In this document: positions 3,766 to 45,426 of the stretch, piece after piece
Position numbering within the stretch: position 1 is the first letter of the stretch
How the letters are laid out: each line of letters opens with the position of its first letter
NCBI RefSeq assembly: GCF_947503125.1
Contig: NZ_CANNCR010000003.1
Location: 124,001-188,000 of the forward strand
Length of the DNA stretch: 64,000 bases
Direction: 5' to 3'
Origin: an uncultured Metabacillus sp.
GTDB lineage: Bacteria > Bacillota > Bacilli > Bacillales > Bacillaceae
Program-made: the position numbers and the translations under genes
Notes under the pieces: generated by a model
What the model saw: the letters and a program-made list of their open reading frames with translations, nothing else
Told to the model about the DNA's origin: nothing
Databases searched by the model: none

Positions 3766-4170
3766 ATGTTAAAAAAACAAACGCTGCGTACAAATAAACG
3801 CGATGAGATGATTGAGGTAACAGAAGAAGTCCAAGCCTTCGTGAGTGAATTAGGAATACAAGAAGGGGCTGTCTTAATTTATTGTCCGCACACAACGGCT
3901 GGAATAACGATAAATGAAAATGCCGATCCAGATGTAAAACGGGATATGATTAGACGCTTTGATGAAGTCTATCCGTGGAATGTCGTAAAAGACTTGCATG
4001 CAGAAGGTAACACGGCAGCGCATATGAAAGCAAGCACTGTTGGGGCATCACAAACAGTAATTATTACGAATGGGAGATTGCTTTTAGGAACATGGCAAGG
4101 CATTTACTTTTGTGAATTTGACGGTCCAAGACAAAGAACCTTTTATATAAAATCTTTATCCCAATCTTAA
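3766..4170 (+). CDS. yugU: YjbQ/UPF0047 family protein (YugU)
   Basis: 134 residues, the standard length for the UPF0047/YjbQ family; B. subtilis YugU is 132. The hallmark segments are present: [18 protein letters not shown] (about 47-64), the central [13 protein letters not shown] with its conserved His residues, and [16 protein letters not shown] near the end. AAGGGAGAG precedes the ATG. Members have been described as having weak thiamine-phosphate synthase activity, but the true role is unsettled. It stands alone after the mstX promoter region and is followed by a small membrane-protein gene. Confidence 0.88.
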
Positions 4171-4249
4171 TGGGAGTTAATTTGGAATGCTTACTCTATG
4201 TTTGATATGTTAATATGATCTATTAGGAAGTGTCAGTATGAGGTGATGT

Positions 4250-4474
4250 ATGGAATTCTTACTAATATTCTTTTTTGTTATAGTCATCTTAGTTTCAATT
4301 GCAGGGTTTATGATGACCAAAAAAATCTATGTTGCACCTGCTGTTGTTTTTGTTCTCTTATCATTTATTCTGCTCCTGTTTTTTAACGAAACATTTTTTA
4401 TTTGGGTGCTCGGATATACATTGTTATCAACGATCATTTCTTTTCTGATGGCGATCATTAAAAAAACGGCCTGA
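4250..4474 (+). CDS. Small DUF2651-type membrane protein
   Basis: 74 residues, nearly all hydrophobic: helices at about 3-22, 27-46 and 48-70, with a short basic stretch (MTKKIYVAP) between the first two and AIIKKTA at the end. The pattern resembles the DUF2651 (YbeF-like) proteins of Bacillus. GAGGTGAT lies just before the ATG, so the frame is very likely translated. It is followed directly by a strong terminator. No function is known for the family. Confidence 0.7.
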   Translation: MEFLLIFFFVIVILVSIAGFMMTKKIYVAPAVVFVLLSFILLLFFNETFFIWVLGYTLLSTIISFLMAIIKKTA

Positions 4475-4484
4475 ATAAATAAAG

Positions 4485-4526
4485 AGGCTGTCTCAATGGG
4501 CCTAATCCATTTTAGACAGCCTTTTT
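4485..4526 (+). terminator. Intrinsic terminator
   Basis: AGGCTGTCT at 4485-4493 pairs with AGACAGCCT at 4514-4522 and is followed by a T run. It ends the small membrane-protein gene and probably also limits tgl coming from the other side. The GAGGCTGTCTCAA arm recurs in the terminator at 10346. Confidence 0.85.
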
Positions 4527-4529
4527 CAG

Positions 4530-5354
4530 TTAATCATAATATAAGTGTGTGCCAATCCTGCCGACTATTTTCTTTTGTGAGATAAATCGCGGAACATTTC
4601 CTTGACGATGACTGTCATTTTCAAATTGATAGAGATAATAATCATCAATTCGAGTCACCTGTGACAGTAAATAGGCTGATATAGTTGCGTTAGGATATCT
4701 CCGCTTATTTAAAGCCTCGATAACACCTTCTGCTGTTTTTATCCCTATTCCATGAGCAAAATATAGTCCTTTACTTAAATCAATCACATTCTCCCCGCGC
4801 CATTGTGGCCTTTTTGGATCAAATTGCGGGTTATTAAAATATAGGCAATCACCGGGAATAAAATCATTTCCCCTTCTTGTATAAATGGGCAGGTCATCAT
4901 CCGATTGCCAGTCACGTAAGTACATGCCTTGATAGATTCGGTCAAATTGGGTGCGATTTATCGAATCAAGAACGGCTTTATAAAAAATAATTACAATCGC
5001 AGTCGCACACTCAAACCCGTACTTGGCGCCATTTTGAAAAATATCATTGATCGCATCGGACGGACGAATTCCGTCTCTAAGCTTAAAGCCTCCTTGCACT
5101 GTTAATCTCCAATACCGTTCATTACAACGGGCGTTTTCAAAAGTGGTGAACCTGGCTTCACTAGCAAACAAATCTCTTGATGCCTTAATAATTGAAGAGC
5201 GCAAATGAAGGACAAACAGAAAATGATCATTATTCAAAAAGGTATACTTGATTGGATACCGGCCCATACGATCAATCATTTCTCTTTCTTCCTCTGAAAG
5301 TGTCGATGTGTACAATTGATTTTCCTGCACAAAATTATTTCCTATATAAATCAT
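4530..5354 (-). CDS. tgl: Protein-glutamine gamma-glutamyltransferase (spore transglutaminase)
   Basis: 274 residues from the ATG at 5354, which follows AGGAGGGAGAAG; the frame runs open to 5414 but the extra 20 codons lack a ribosome site. Spore Tgl cross-links coat proteins through Gln-Lys bonds. The catalytic Cys lies in GFECATA and falls exactly at residue 116, the position of the B. subtilis active-site Cys. The segments RYWRLTVQGGFKLRDGIRPSDA and IDLSKGLYFAHGIGIKTAE are also typical. It is slightly longer than the 245-residue B. subtilis enzyme. It is monocistronic, and a late mother-cell promoter would be expected, though I could not identify one with confidence. Confidence 0.93.
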   Translation of the reverse strand: MIYIGNNFVQENQLYTSTLSEEEREMIDRMGRYPIKYTFLNNDHFLFVLHLRSSIIKASRDLFASEARFTTFENARCNERYWRLTVQGGFKLRDGIRPSDAINDIFQNGAKYGFECATAIVIIFYKAVLDSINRTQFDRIYQGMYLRDWQSDDDLPIYTRRGNDFIPGDCLYFNNPQFDPKRPQWRGENVIDLSKGLYFAHGIGIKTAEGVIEALNKRRYPNATISAYLLSQVTRIDDYYLYQFENDSHRQGNVPRFISQKKIVGRIGTHLYYD

Positions 5355-32463: not shown

Positions 32464-32619
32464 GTCATTCACCCTTTACTCGTTTTACCTATCATTATCA
32501 TTGACGTTTTCATCATGAATATTCCAGACTCATTTTTTATGTTCAACAAGAAAAAATTACGATTAGGTATTTACATAGCAAAATCTTAGGAGTATGATAA
32601 TCATCAGTTTCATAATTCA

Positions 32620-32745
32620 AATCGCTTAATCCATTAGGAACGGGGGACCCATTTTCACGTGGATCATTGATCCTTTGGGGTGAATCCTTAACAGGTAGGG
32701 ATACTCTTTTGTCCCGAACCCGACAGCTAACTCCGTAAGCGTTAT
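32620..32745 (+). ncRNA. c-di-AMP riboswitch (ydaO-yuaA class)
   Basis: The class hallmarks appear in order: the closing stem CGCTTA (32623-32628) with TAAGCG (32736-32741), AATCCATTAGGAACGGGGGA, GGGGTGAATCC, a GTAGGGAT segment, and CCCGAACCCGACAGCTAAC. It lies directly upstream of kimA, its usual partner in Bacillus. In B. subtilis c-di-AMP binding shuts off kimA expression when potassium is plentiful. Confidence 0.93.
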
Positions 32746-32785
32746 GAGAGGAAGGTGGAGCTGGTGTGACAGACAAAATGAATGT

Positions 32786-32920: not shown

Positions 32921-34737
32921 ATGGTATCTACGGTAAAAAGAATCTTAATAGGTCGCCCCTTAAAGTCAACAGAATTAGGGGAACAAAAACTGAATAAGAA
33001 GAAAGCTCTGGCTATTTTATCTTCTGATGCTTTATCATCTGTTGCATATGGGCCAGAACAAATTTTGCTTGTTTTAATGACAGTAAGTGCCGTTGCCTTT
33101 TGGTACTCAATCCCAATCGCAATTGGCGTATTATTTCTCTTATTGGCACTCCTATCGGCAAATTATTTTTGCCTATCCGCACGGAGGTGGGGCATATGTC
33201 GTTTCACGAGAGAATCTTGGAGTAAATCCAGGGCTTGTTGCAGGCGGTTCATTATTGGTTGACTATATTCTGACTGTAGCAGTTAGTGTGTCGGCGGGAA
33301 CAGATGCGATTACTTCCGCTTTTCCTGCCTTACATTCATACAATGTCATCATCGCATGTTTACTTGTTGTGTTTTTAACTATCTTGAATTTAAGAGGGGT
33401 TACTGAATCAGCTTCCTTTTTAGCCTATCCAGTTTACTTATTTGTTTTCGCTTTGTTTGTCTTAATTGGAGTAGGCTTATATCAGATTGTGACTGGTCAT
33501 GTCTCACCAGAGCTTCATGCACCTGTTGGGTCGCCGGTTACTGGTATAACCTTGTTTTTGCTGCTTAGAGCATTTGCGTCAGGTTGTTCTGCTTTAACTG
33601 GTGTAGAAGCGATTTCGAATGCGATCCCCAATTTTAAGGACCCAGCTCCGAATAATGCAGCGAAAACGCTGACAGCAATGGGGATATTGCTCGCGATTTT
33701 ATTTTCGGGTATTGTTTATTTAGCCTATTACTATGGTATAACACCAAAAGCAGAGGAAACGGTTGTTTCACAAATAGCATCAGAAACCTTTGGAAGGAAT
33801 TTCATGTATTTCTTCATTCAAGGAACAACAGCTATGATTCTTATTCTAGCGGCAAATACCGGTTATTCTGCTTTCCCTCTATTGGCTTTTAATCTTGCAA
33901 AGGATAAATATTTGGCAAGAATGTTTACCATTAGAGGAGATCGCTTAGGGTATTCTAATGGTATCATATTTCTTGGAGTGGCTTCCATTCTTTTGATTAT
34001 CGCCTTTAGAGGACATACTGAGCAATTAATTCCGCTTTATGCAGTTGGTGTATTCATACCATTTACCTTATCTCAAACAGGGATGCTGGTTAAATGGATT
34101 CGTGAAAAGCCTGATGGCTGGGTGGTAAAGCTGACAATTAACTTTGTCGGGGCATTCATTAGCTTTTTAGTTATGATGACGTTCTTTATCACTAAATTTG
34201 GCCAGGTGTGGTCTGTTGGTTTTCCTGCCAATTCTTGTGTTCATTTTTCATCGGGTGAAAAAGCACTATGACGCAGTAGGAAACCAATTAAGAATCACAA
34301 CATGTGAACCAGTTAAACCAATTGAGGGAAATGTGATTATTGTTCCAGTCGCAGGAATTACTCATGTTGTAGAGAATTCATTAAATTATGCGAAATCTTT
34401 AAATGCTGACCAAATCATTGCTGTTTATGTTTCGTTTGAACGAAAGGATGAAAAAACCTTTGAACAGAAATGGGAAAAATGGCAGCCGGATATTCGGCTA
34501 GTGACATTACACTCATATTATAGAAGCATCATCCAGCCGCTATCAAAATTTATTGATACAGTGGAACATAAAGCAGATGAGTCAAATTATCGGGTCACGG
34601 TGTTAATCCCGCAATTTATTCCGAAGAAAAGATGGCACTATATTCTTCATAATCAGTCAAGCTTGTTAATTCGGGCTGTGCTTTTGTATAGGAAAGATGT
34701 TGTAGTTACTACAGTTCCTTATCATCTAAAGGAATAA
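32921..34737 (+). pseudogene. kimA: kimA (ydaO) potassium importer, broken by two frameshifts
   Basis: Three overlapping frames together cover one KUP/APC-type potassium importer of the usual length (about 605 residues). Frame 1 begins MVSTVKRILIGRPLKS and stays in register to about 33150 (VLFLLLALL). Homology then continues one frame over from SYRQIIFAYPHGGGAYVVS to FITKFGQVWSV near 34212, and in the third frame from VFLPILVFIFHRVKKHYDAV to the stop at 34737. Both shifts behave as +1 (or -2) changes. No product longer than about 113 residues can be made from the natural start. The c-di-AMP riboswitch in front is intact. It is either a recent pseudogene or a sequencing artefact. Confidence 0.85.
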
Positions 34738-34960: not shown

Positions 34961-35151
34961 CTATCCTGGTGAGGTAGAGGTTGCAACAATTAAGAGTAGT
35001 TCTTACTGAGATCTGGTGGGATCATGGAAGAAGAAACAAAAGGAATTGTTGCCGAAGCAAGGAATGACCACACAGCTATCCTTGCTGGGACTGCACTGAA
35101 TAAGTGCAGGACTGTCATAGGTTTTTTCTATGGAGAGCTATTACGGGATAG
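34961..35151 (+). ncRNA. Lysine riboswitch (L box)
   Basis: The P1 stem pairs CTATCC (34961-34966) with GGATAG (35146-35151). Conserved L-box blocks lie between: GAGGTAGAGGTTGC, AAGAGTA, TTGTTGCCGAAGCAAGGAAT, CTTGCTGGGACTGCACTGAA and GACTGTCATAG with TATGGAGAGCTATT. It stands before a basic amino acid permease, a usual L-box target, where lysine binding favours termination. Confidence 0.92.
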
Positions 35152-35264: not shown

Positions 35265-36653
35265 TTGACCTCCTTAGTAGTTGGAAATATGGTAGGCTCG
35301 GGCATCTTTATGCTTCCAAGCACACTTGCACAGACAGCAAGTCCTTTAGGGGTAACCTTTGCATGGATCATTACCGGGCTGGGTGTTTTGATGATTGCCC
35401 TTGTCTTTGGTAAGTTAGCAATCCGCAGGCCTGATTTAACAGCTGGGCCTCAAAGCTATGCACGTGAATTATTTGCATCAAAGAATAAGGGAAATGTTGC
35501 CGGTTTTGGTATGGTTTGGGGATATTGGATCGCAAACTGGATAAGTAACGTTGCGATTATTACAAGCTTTGCAGGCTATCTATCTACTTTCTTTCCTATC
35601 ATGAGCAACCCATCCATTTTGTTTACAATTGGAAACCAAGATGTTGAATTAGGGAGACTTGTGACATTTATTGTTTGTACCCTGTTACTATGGGGAACAC
35701 ATTTCATTTTGGTAACGAACCTAAATGTTGGAGGAAAAGTAAATGTTGTAGCAACTTCTACAAAAATTATTGGCTTTGTTTTATTTATTGTCGCAGCGCT
35801 TTTTGCATTTCAATCCTCAAATTTAGGAGATTTATATTCACCTGTTGTTGATGCTAATGGACAAACACATGGATTATCCAGTCAAATCAATTTAGCGATG
35901 ATTTCGACCCTATGGGCATTTGTTGGGATTGAGTCTGCTGTGATCTTATCTGGACGGGCAAAATCTCAACGCGATGTCAGCCGCGCAACTATTATTGGCT
36001 TGTTTATCGCGTTAACGATCTATACAGGAATTACATTACTGATCATGGGCGTTTTACCGCAGGAGGTATTAAAAGCTTCTGACAAACCATTCGTAGATGC
36101 GCTTTCTGTTATGATTGGCGACATGGGTGCAACCGTTATGGCCATCCTTGCGATTGTTTCATTGCTTGGCTCGACAATCGGTTGGATCCTTCTAAGTGCT
36201 GAAGTGCCTTATCAAGCGGCAAAAAAAGGAACTTTTCCAAGCTTTTTTGCCAAGGTAAATAAGAAAGGAAGCCCGGTTCGTGCTTTAACCGTTACAAATG
36301 CTATGTCGCAAATTTTTATTCTTTCCGTCATTTCAGGTACGATTAGTGAGGCATATACATTTTTGACAACTTCTGCAACACTGGCCTATCTTATTCCTTA
36401 TTTTGTTTCAGCGTTATTCTTCTTAAAGCTTGTGATAAAAGGAGAAACATATGATCGTATAGCAGGTTCTAGATGGTTCGACGGTTTGATTGCAGTTTTA
36501 GCACTTATCTATTCGGTATGGGTTATTAAATCAGGAATCTCAGATTTAACGACATTTTCGTTGGGAATTGGATTATTTCTAGCAGGTATTATTATTTATC
36601 CGTTTGTAAATCGTAAAAAAACTAACAGTCAAGTTGGTCATGAAGCCGAATAA
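35265..36653 (+). CDS. yvsH: Lysine-type APC permease with an in-frame stop after codon 8
   Basis: 462 residues are open from a TTG at 35265. The protein is a 12-helix APC transporter of the basic amino acid group (VVGNMVGSGIFMLPSTLAQ, FAWIITGLGVLM), like B. subtilis YvsH. The expected start is the ATG at 35235, which has a GGAGG and begins MIDKKWGL, but codon 9 is TAA (35259-35261). The remaining frame is continuous with it. The first helix is complete from the TTG, and GGGGG lies about 9 bases before that codon, so re-initiation could rescue the gene. Otherwise it is a pseudogene or a base-call error. Confidence 0.8.
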   Translation: MTSLVVGNMVGSGIFMLPSTLAQTASPLGVTFAWIITGLGVLMIALVFGKLAIRRPDLTAGPQSYARELFASKNKGNVAGFGMVWGYWIANWISNVAIITSFAGYLSTFFPIMSNPSILFTIGNQDVELGRLVTFIVCTLLLWGTHFILVTNLNVGGKVNVVATSTKIIGFVLFIVAALFAFQSSNLGDLYSPVVDANGQTHGLSSQINLAMISTLWAFVGIESAVILSGRAKSQRDVSRATIIGLFIALTIYTGITLLIMGVLPQEVLKASDKPFVDALSVMIGDMGATVMAILAIVSLLGSTIGWILLSAEVPYQAAKKGTFPSFFAKVNKKGSPVRALTVTNAMSQIFILSVISGTISEAYTFLTTSATLAYLIPYFVSALFFLKLVIKGETYDRIAGSRWFDGLIAVLALIYSVWVIKSGISDLTTFSLGIGLFLAGIIIYPFVNRKKTNSQVGHEAE

Positions 36654-43643: not shown

Positions 43644-44120
43644 TTATATTAAATTCATATAACCGAAACCATATACAGAACCAACTGTCAATGCGATGGT
43701 CCATAGTGCAAGACTAATAGCCATCCAAGAGATAACACGAGGACGAGAAGATCCGAAGCTTAGGGCCAAGATTGCTGCTAAGTCTGTTCCAACTATCCCT
43801 GGTGCTACTAAAGCTAGACCGGGAAGTCCATATTGTTCCCATATTCTTCTTGCTCTTGTTTCCCTTTTTGACGGAGTTGTAATACCTTTCTTTTGTCGTC
43901 TTTTATCTCTCCATTTTGAAAGTTGCTTAAAGAAGAAGCCAAAAAGAAGTACTATTAAAAAGTTCCCAGCAAAACCAATAACCCCGACTGCCATCGGATT
44001 TAGACCTAATGCTACCCCAAGTGGCACTACAAGAAATACATCTAATAACGGTGCTGCTGCGAGCACAAATAATATAACATATTGCCATATTCCATCAGTT
44101 TGTTGAATCCATTCCATCAT
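43644..44120 (-). CDS. Small multidrug export-type membrane protein (Pfam Sm_multidrug_ex)
   Basis: 158 residues from the ATG at 44120; GGAGGG is spaced 8 bases from it, whereas the ATG at 44126 is too close. About four helices: YVILFVLAAAPLLDVFLVVPLG, MAVGVIGFAGNFLIVLLFGF, LALVAPGIVGTDLAAILAL and SWMAISLALWTIALTVG. A basic loop (KWRDKRRQKKGITTPSKRETRAR) divides the halves. This fits the poorly characterised small multidrug export family, related in fold to DedA proteins. Transport of drugs is not proven for it. Confidence 0.65.
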   Translation of the reverse strand: MMEWIQQTDGIWQYVILFVLAAAPLLDVFLVVPLGVALGLNPMAVGVIGFAGNFLIVLLFGFFFKQLSKWRDKRRQKKGITTPSKRETRARRIWEQYGLPGLALVAPGIVGTDLAAILALSFGSSRPRVISWMAISLALWTIALTVGSVYGFGYMNLI

Positions 44121-44213
44121 TAACATAGCCCTCCGTTATTCTTTTCATTGAATACATATACGCACCAATTTTGCAAAAAGTTTCATAGTAATATTAATTT
44201 TTGAAAAAAAGAA

Positions 44214-45213: not shown

Positions 45214-45245
45214 AAAAAAACCTTTACCGTCTTGGTAAAGGTTTT
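45214..45245 (-). terminator. Riboswitch-linked terminator before fbpB
   Basis: On the minus strand CCTTTACC (45241-45234) pairs with GGTAAAGG (45228-45221), with extra A-T pairs, and ends in seven T residues. It lies between the Mn aptamer and fbpB. Confidence 0.85.
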
Positions 45246-45257
45246 AGAAAACAAATA

Positions 45258-45375
45258 AAGACCTTTACCAATAAGTAAAGGTCTTGCTAACAACGGAATG
45301 TTGCCAACAAAGCCGAGAGCTTAACATCCACTCTGTAATGACGACTTTATTGTAAAAGCTACTCCCCTTTAGGAG
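45258..45375 (-). ncRNA. Manganese riboswitch (yybP-ykoY class) with switching stems
   Basis: Reading the minus strand from 45375: the box TAAAGGGGAGTAGC, then AAAGTCGTCATTAC, CGGCTTTGTTGGC and the closing AGCAAGACCTTTAC. These are the conserved parts of the yybP-ykoY aptamer, in the right order and spacing. P1 pairs TAAAGG (45371-45366) with CCTTTA. The closing strand can instead pair with GTAAAGGT at 45268-45261. Mn2+ should stabilise P1. The downstream genes are fbpB, spo0M-like and ykvA-like rather than a Mn exporter. Confidence 0.88.
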
Positions 45376-45397
45376 ATACGATATATTATTTGAGTAA

Positions 45398-45426
45398 ATC
45401 ATATGCTATTTTAAAATATTCGTCAA
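45398..45426 (-). promoter_or_regulatory. Promoter of the Mn riboswitch transcript
   Basis: On the minus strand TTGACG (45426-45421) and TATGAT (45403-45398) are separated by exactly 17 bases. Transcription would start about 15-20 bases before the aptamer. Confidence 0.75.

Follow-up and report, generated by a model that had tools for sequence, protein, structure and literature searches.

Likely two-terminator manganese riboswitch in front of an FbpB-family operon in Metabacillus

Based on comparisons of leader sequences combined with RNA folding, we propose that a leader on the minus strand of the window, i.e. the whole 64,000-nucleotide stretch from an uncultured Metabacillus sp. analysed here, acts as a yybP-ykoY riboswitch that turns transcription on with Mn2+ through a 'domino' platform of two terminators, and that the operon it precedes probably belongs to the manganese-homeostasis (TerC/MeeY) regulon. 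We consider this reading likely, with some room for doubt.

The leader and its aptamer

The preliminary description had placed a promoter, a yybP-ykoY aptamer and two hairpins, the second with a seven-T tail, in front of a small gene; all of these lie where it put them, and its five segments, A to E, are exact in the sequence. The promoter elements were read from the sequence, the aptamer was delimited using RF00080 and an alignment of 37 aptamers, and the features of the leader are as follows.

45426-45214, minus strand: whole leader, with promoter, aptamer and two hairpins
45426-45421, minus strand: promoter -35 element TTGACG, 17-nt spacer to the -10 element
45403-45398, minus strand: promoter -10 element TATGAT
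45376-45363, minus strand: P0, a 5' hairpin UCUCC-UAAA-GGGGA that overlaps segment A
45373-45274, minus strand: apparent yybP-ykoY (Mn2+) aptamer, including P1
45371-45366, minus strand: segment A, TAAAGG, the 5' strand of P1
45285-45274, minus strand: segment B, full arm AAGACCTTTACT, the 3' strand of P1 and 5' arm of the first hairpin
45283-45274, minus strand: core of segment B, GACCTTTACT
45269-45258, minus strand: segment C, full arm GGTAAAGGTCTT, the 3' arm of the first hairpin and candidate antiterminator strand
45269-45260, minus strand: core of segment C, GGTAAAGGTC
45285-45258, minus strand: first hairpin, B-C, followed by a U-rich tail
directly after segment C, minus strand: this U-rich tail, TATTTGTTTT
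45245-45234, minus strand: segment D, AAAACCTTTACC
45228-45217, minus strand: segment E, GGTAAAGGTTTT
45245-45217, minus strand: second hairpin, D-E, ending in seven U
45220-45214, minus strand: seven-T run, the U-tract of the putative second terminator

A TTGAC(G/T) -35 element is visible by eye in 17/17 orthologous leaders of the genus, and the window leader folds much better than its dinucleotide shuffles (z -5.9, 0/200 shuffles as good). P0 hides part of segment A and is mutually exclusive with the pairing of this strand in P1. Between the second hairpin and the start codon of the 40-aa gene the gap is only 44 nt, in which no promoter-like site was found on the minus strand, and a promoter of the gene's own at this position is therefore unlikely. 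The case that would have undone the riboswitch reading, namely transcription of the gene from a separate Fur-controlled promoter, found neither a promoter-like site in the gap nor a good Fur box.

A scan of the window at Rfam gathering scores lists the lysine and c-di-AMP riboswitches alone and not the aptamer. With an E-value threshold, RF00080 is top-scoring at 45381-45289 (25.8 bits, E 3.7e-5 in a 601-base search), the gathering score of 45 bits being a detection cut-off and no structural property. A genome-wide RF00080 search has four matches at E <=1, scoring 46.1 (before a TerC gene), 25.8 (window), 22.5 (the other TerC gene) and 15.2 bits (a kinase-like gene). It also matches 16 of 20 relatives at E <=0.05, all of them under 45 bits, so that these aptamers would escape annotation at that score. 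With R1, a lineage model built in part from the window leader and the 22.5-bit TerC leader themselves, both reach ~100 bits. The fourth of the genomic places, L006, carries its Mn aptamer at 1513-1600, before the kinase-like gene at 1697-2338 (Pkinase 28.3 bits, under the cut-off of 31.7), and the R1 survey described below brought up further aptamers followed by relatives of this gene.

In an alignment of 37 diverse aptamers, the genome's own four included, compensatory double changes occur in 14 of 30 pairs; covariation backs the stems as well as the P1 switch helix, which is kept in nearly all 37. The L3 residues UCANUNC are invariant in 37/37 and played no part in collecting the aptamers, whereas invariance of L1 is by construction, the aptamers having been gathered by the motif GGGGAGTAG. 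Both the L1 motif GGGGAGUAGC and UCANUNC are present in the window, where, in our own reading of the alignment, the A at 45339 matches the Mn-sensing A41 of Lactococcus lactis (residue roles from PMC9190785, in excerpt). Judged by sequence, the window aptamer looks like a real yybP-ykoY aptamer of the Mn2+ type though it falls under the Rfam cut-off, with Mn2+ as presumed ligand. Comparison of sequences supports the earlier proposal of a Mn2+ aptamer joined to an ON-type platform of exclusive stems.

The low Rfam score could alternatively indicate that the aptamer has drifted, the leader now acting as a constitutive attenuator or as the source of a terminated small RNA. We give this very little credence, as the metal-contact residues of L3 are invariant and P1 is so widely kept, and as the genome's own TerC leader scores lower still with RF00080; the high R1 scores of both leaders also speak against drift, within the limit set by the partial origin of R1 from them.

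A chain of exclusive stems and its proposed switching

To the aptamer is joined what looks like a real chain of mutually exclusive stems, in which each segment can pair with the one before it or the one after. The comparison comprised 218 distinct leaders, i.e. 94 from a mostly FbpB-anchored set, where the TerC leader L005 of the window genome is included as well, and 124 from an R1 survey of 61 genomes; L294, in which no aptamer core was found, and the lowest-scoring R1 survey matches were left out. By script, tandem hairpins are present in 168/218 leaders and single hairpins in 50/218, a second hairpin being seen by eye in four of the latter (L183, L195, L199 and L217). A script count in 95 leaders gave 87 as tandem, with two hairpins also visible by eye in L042, L101, L104, L155 and L164; the three singles of the mostly FbpB-anchored set include L003 and L006. 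Three hairpins in a row were seen by eye in L161. By regular expression, P0 occurs in 80/80 tandem leaders from the mostly FbpB-anchored set and in 45/81 from the survey, compared with 7/46 single-hairpin leaders, the classes in these counts being partly set by eye.

In the tandem leaders D, the 5' arm of the second hairpin, is able to pair with C, the 3' arm of the first, the window duplex comprising 9 bp at -12.3 kcal/mol. C and D fit each other better within leaders than between them, with a mean of -15.02 kcal/mol for matched and -14.18 kcal/mol for permuted combinations (z -7.4, 0/5000). Mere relatedness of the leaders was rejected as the source of this signal: it persists after thinning to 16 leaders whose similarity ratios stay below 0.70 (z -4.2, p 2e-4) and absent from the control pairing B:E under the same permutation (z -0.3, -0.9, +0.2 and +0.05 at four levels), with the provisos that permutation and dereplication lessen relatedness without removing it and that B varies little, which limits the power of the control. 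The mostly FbpB-anchored set, which likewise varies little, gives a weak signal on its own (z -2.2, p 0.015). In L229, L224 and L194, C and D have changed jointly, as seen by eye, with B not following. Pairing between C and D is imperfect in places, with mismatches by eye in L164, L216, L259 and L262, duplexes weaker than -9 kcal/mol in 10/168 tandem leaders, and 19/168 that do no better than the 1% tail given by 93 unrelated terminators.

The first hairpin is probably a terminator too, with both hairpins switching together. In the window, B-C scores terminator-like and is followed by a U-rich tail. In each of the 91 tandem leaders from the mostly FbpB-anchored collection, the 9 nt following B-C contain 5-8 U (mean 6.9), as compared to a mean of 7.0 in the same 9 nt of 47 single-hairpin survey leaders; the tails of tandem leaders are thus as U-rich as those of single terminators, which makes both hairpins probable terminators. 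The likeness to L. lactis, where the 3' strand of P1.1 is also part of the terminator stem (PMC11087558, in excerpt), likewise points to B-C as the first terminator of the window. Of the chain as first described, the C-D pairing stands, supported by the fit within leaders, and the role of B-C as a non-terminating element does not. A non-terminating spacer was rejected for the window on account of the U-rich tail, and fits 23 survey leaders (e.g. L228, L235 and L242) in which the 9 nt following B-C hold <=4 U. As the first U-tract is lost in these 23, B-C can hardly terminate there and D-E is the likely terminator; C:D is nonetheless still better than permuted among them (z -5.0), and a switch in such leaders would work only through the chain.

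The preliminary description further held that Mn2+ frees C to pair with D and thereby blocks D-E. The pairing is favoured by the comparison, and the mechanism additionally needs kinetic control, since D-E (-14.2 kcal/mol) is more stable than C-D (-10.3 kcal/mol) and any effect of C-D must hence be kinetic. With P1 forced, C-D appears in the minimum-energy structure of a transcript ending at 45234, and at full length the fold goes back to D-E. Forcing P1 costs 7 to 15 kcal/mol relative to free folding and gives structures that lack the canonical aptamer, which we ascribe to Mn2+ and docking lying outside the folding model.

We accordingly envisage the following cycle as a model. Without Mn2+, P1 (A-B) would be open, B-C would form as first and D-E as second terminator, and transcription would stop. 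With Mn2+, A-B would close and C would lose B as its partner; C would then pair with D as D emerges, leaving E unpaired, so that both terminators would fail jointly and the operon of FbpB-like, Spo0M-like and DUF1232 genes would be transcribed. For this, C-D would have to form first and outlast the passage of the U-tract. Computation itself establishes the sequence elements, the covariation of the aptamer and of C-D, the conserved position ahead of this gene and the linkage to TerC; the kinetic relay step, together with Mn2+ as the ligand of this leader, the direction of switching, the operon structure and the function of the protein, is what we infer.

A rival arrangement would dispense with the relay, the aptamer being coupled to B-C alone, with D-E as a backup and the likeness of the two hairpins as a relic of duplication. 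B is close to a copy of D and C to a copy of E, and much of the complementarity among the four could indeed descend from duplication; B-C by itself has a terminator-like tail, the class also has single-hairpin leaders (the 50 counted by script), D-E is the more stable fold, and covariation in the mostly FbpB-anchored set alone is weak. Yet transcription would in that case end at D-E even in the presence of Mn2+, unless D-E were leaky, and this arrangement accounts poorly for a C:D fit that is better within than between leaders and has no counterpart in B:E, for the 23 leaders that keep the chain though their B-C has no U-tract, or for the changes of C and D without B in L194, L224 and L229. 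We regard it as unlikely, and retain the relay.

The proposed operon, its conservation and the iron question

The genes presumably controlled by the leader, and the hairpin that follows them, are listed below.

45169-45047, minus strand: FbpB-family (PF13040) 40-aa gene of the Mn-riboswitch subfamily (51.6 bits, cut-off 25)
45026-44637, minus strand: short Spo0M-like gene (PF07070)
44623-44318, minus strand: DUF1232 (PF06803) gene
44251-44214, minus strand: terminator-like hairpin, the probable end of the operon

Beyond this hairpin lies a gene for a PF06695 small membrane protein (43644-44126, minus strand). The possibility that the 40-aa gene is a chance reading frame was rejected, as it differs from its counterpart at L037 by 8 synonymous and 0 nonsynonymous codons.

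The preliminary description had proposed to look for the aptamer before fbpB in other Bacillaceae, and the arrangement recurs widely. Among 21 Metabacillus genomes searched, four have no close homologue of the window protein; all 17 close homologues, its own included (identity 61-100%), have the aptamer upstream. The same is true, within 650 nt, for 63 of 75 named loci that were found by protein alone and come partly from the same genomes as the genus set. These named loci carry names such as Metabacillus, Mesobacillus, Cytobacillus, Peribacillus, Rossellomorea, Fredinandcohnia, Niallia and Lederbergia. The 12 named loci without it in this range comprise three in which it sits just downstream of the FbpB-like gene (L126, L128 and L132), one in which it sits 2 kb upstream (L111), one whose upstream region is lost to the contig end (L105), and seven in which an exact-motif search found no aptamer (L073, L094, L120, L129, L133, L139 and L140). 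At L126 the aptamer is located between tandem FbpB-like genes (4001-4561). No aptamer was found upstream of the 43 other PF13040 loci (36 distinct places) used as controls. Counted over all 115 distinct FbpB-like loci the share is 103/115, a figure that is biased because some of these loci were reached through the aptamer.

The neighbourhood of these genes points towards manganese. Among 137 FbpB-like loci (138 on recount; 115 distinct), a Spo0M-like gene accompanies the FbpB-like gene in 76, DUF1232 in 52 and TerC in 54, counted on the same strand from 0.6 kb before to 3 kb after the gene, with many loci covering just 1.5 kb per side; near the 43 control PF13040 loci (36 distinct) none of the three was found. 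Of the 115 distinct loci, 48 have TerC no more than 3 kb downstream in the same orientation, all 48 with an upstream aptamer, 26 of them <=300 nt from the gene start. In the window genome itself, the two TerC genes found (L003 and L005) are at other loci, with aptamers of their own. TerC proteins of the MeeF/MeeY type export Mn2+ and metalate exoproteins, meeY being under a riboswitch of the yybP-ykoY class (PMC12096827, in excerpt). At L138, a Spo0E-like gene (3825-3989; PF09388, 36.8 bits) separates the FbpB-like gene from the Mn riboswitch, and by eye probably also at L098, L106 and L161, which raises a possible manganese link to sporulation control.

The downstream gene had been taken as fbpB itself. 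It appears instead to encode a family relative distinct from true, Fur-regulated FbpB: with NF033227, the NCBIfam equivalog model of FbpB, the window protein reaches 17.4 bits against a cut-off of 60, where three FbpB proteins of genus g6, used as positive controls, reach 90, 95.3 and 97.5 bits. The best Fur box within 300 nt before the window gene (L036) has 9/14 matches, and the Mn-type genes that were read have 11/14 at best, versus an exact 14/14 box ~215 nt upstream of the g6 FbpB genes in 10/19 loci; in this reading 20 of the 43 control and 6 Mn-type loci gave no protein match, and 19 of those 20 controls were read separately.

It had also been suggested that manganese excess would be coupled to the iron-sparing response and, through FbpB, perhaps to the neighbouring lutABC. 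Spelled out, Mn excess would turn on FbpB as an iron-sparing RNA chaperone, and FbpB would then repress lutABC. The gene does belong to PF13040, lutABC is adjacent and divergent in the window, and FbpB of Bacillus subtilis enhances FsrA repression of lutABC (PMC12871923, in excerpt). Nevertheless, the low NF033227 score and poor Fur boxes set the Mn-type genes apart from g6 FbpB, the best FsrA match in the window genome has 23.5 bits with RF02273 (gathering score 80), although a diverged FsrA could still be present, and direct adjacency of lutABC is confined to the window and a single relative (L037/L066), with a second relative, L067, having it ~2.2 kb away. A coupling to iron sparing or to lutABC thus finds no support, the rarity of the adjacency weighing against the latter, and we judge the whole iron-sparing reading highly improbable. 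Given the linkage to TerC and the missing hallmarks of iron sparing, manganese homeostasis is the likelier role of the operon. From gene neighbourhood, our guess is that the small FbpB-like protein serves as a TerC helper.

Known systems and wider meaning

The closest characterised parallels place the window leader within a known class while setting its platform apart. With the yoaB riboswitch of L. lactis (RF00080) it shares the aptamer core, the P1.1 switch helix and, as proposed, Mn2+ ON behaviour (PMC11087558 and PMC9190785, in excerpt); to the one terminator described for yoaB it adds a chained second hairpin and a 5' hairpin before P1. The ykoY riboswitch of Halalkalibacterium halodurans is Mn-ON in vitro, with nearly 50% full-length product at 200 uM Mn2+. 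A 43-bp deletion that arose repeatedly as a suppressor in the platform gives ~3-fold more readthrough without Mn; the excerpted text of PMC10898510 has this deletion leave a 'fortuitous' terminator stem, names one natural terminator and describes no relay. In strain DSM 497, R1 has one match, before a TerC gene whose product is 68% identical to that of the window genome, and the leader has a tandem B-C / D-E platform like that of the window, with a direct repeat AAAGGTCTTTT spaced exactly 43 nt. The deletion would accordingly have removed one hairpin unit, with the caveat that the strain in the excerpted paper may differ from DSM 497. This leader precedes terC (ykoY), as opposed to the FbpB-like gene of the window.

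The proteins compare in a similar manner. FbpB of B. subtilis, here considered with FbpA, FbpC and FsrA, is one of the PF13040 small basic proteins to which the window gene is also related; it is Fur-regulated and iron-sparing (PMC12871923, in excerpt), unlike the window gene with its lack of a good Fur box and its failure with NF033227. As for MeeF/MeeY, meeY is controlled by the riboswitch class of the window leader (PMC12096827, in excerpt) and TerC often follows the FbpB-like gene in relatives, whereas the two TerC genes found in the window genome are elsewhere and outside the window operon.

More broadly, and with slightly more doubt than conviction, we suggest that the 'domino' platform of Mn2+ riboswitches in Bacillales is modular, built of ~43-nt units, and drives a manganese operon not reported before, with an FbpB-family protein acting in the physiology of manganese instead of iron. 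If so, ~43-nt hairpin units would be gained and lost by repeat recombination, each gain bringing one terminator more and leaving the ON logic intact, as every added hairpin contributes two more segments and parity preserves the direction of the switch. L003 with one hairpin, the window with two, L161 with three and the H. halodurans deletion would then lie on one scale of tightness. A single ligand decision would be handed along the row of hairpins, extra terminators tightening the switch without inverting it. The operon would comprise the FbpB-like, Spo0M-like and DUF1232 genes, often with TerC, the FbpB-like protein perhaps being a helper of the latter. With many leaders under the Rfam threshold, a widespread small-protein manganese operon may have escaped annotation, and caution is warranted before an FbpB-family gene is taken to be iron-sparing.

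As far as the literature was searched, the gene context of a Mn riboswitch before an FbpB-like operon is unreported: yybP-ykoY together with FbpB was not found, the 2015 Mol Cell gene lists on this riboswitch being outside the scope of the search, nor was 'manganese riboswitch' together with 'tandem terminators', and TerC with FbpB came up only in two genome papers on other bacteria; nothing nearer than the papers cited above turned up.

The window holds two further riboswitches, both on the plus strand. A c-di-AMP (ydaO/yuaA) riboswitch (32613-32755, 104.8 bits) precedes an AA_permease_2 gene of 394 aa, which overlaps a 179-aa reading frame without a Pfam match (region 33087-34737, plus strand); possibly the transporter is split, or its start was set wrongly. 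A lysine riboswitch (34967-35148, 115.5 bits) precedes an amino acid permease gene at 35265-36653 on the same strand.
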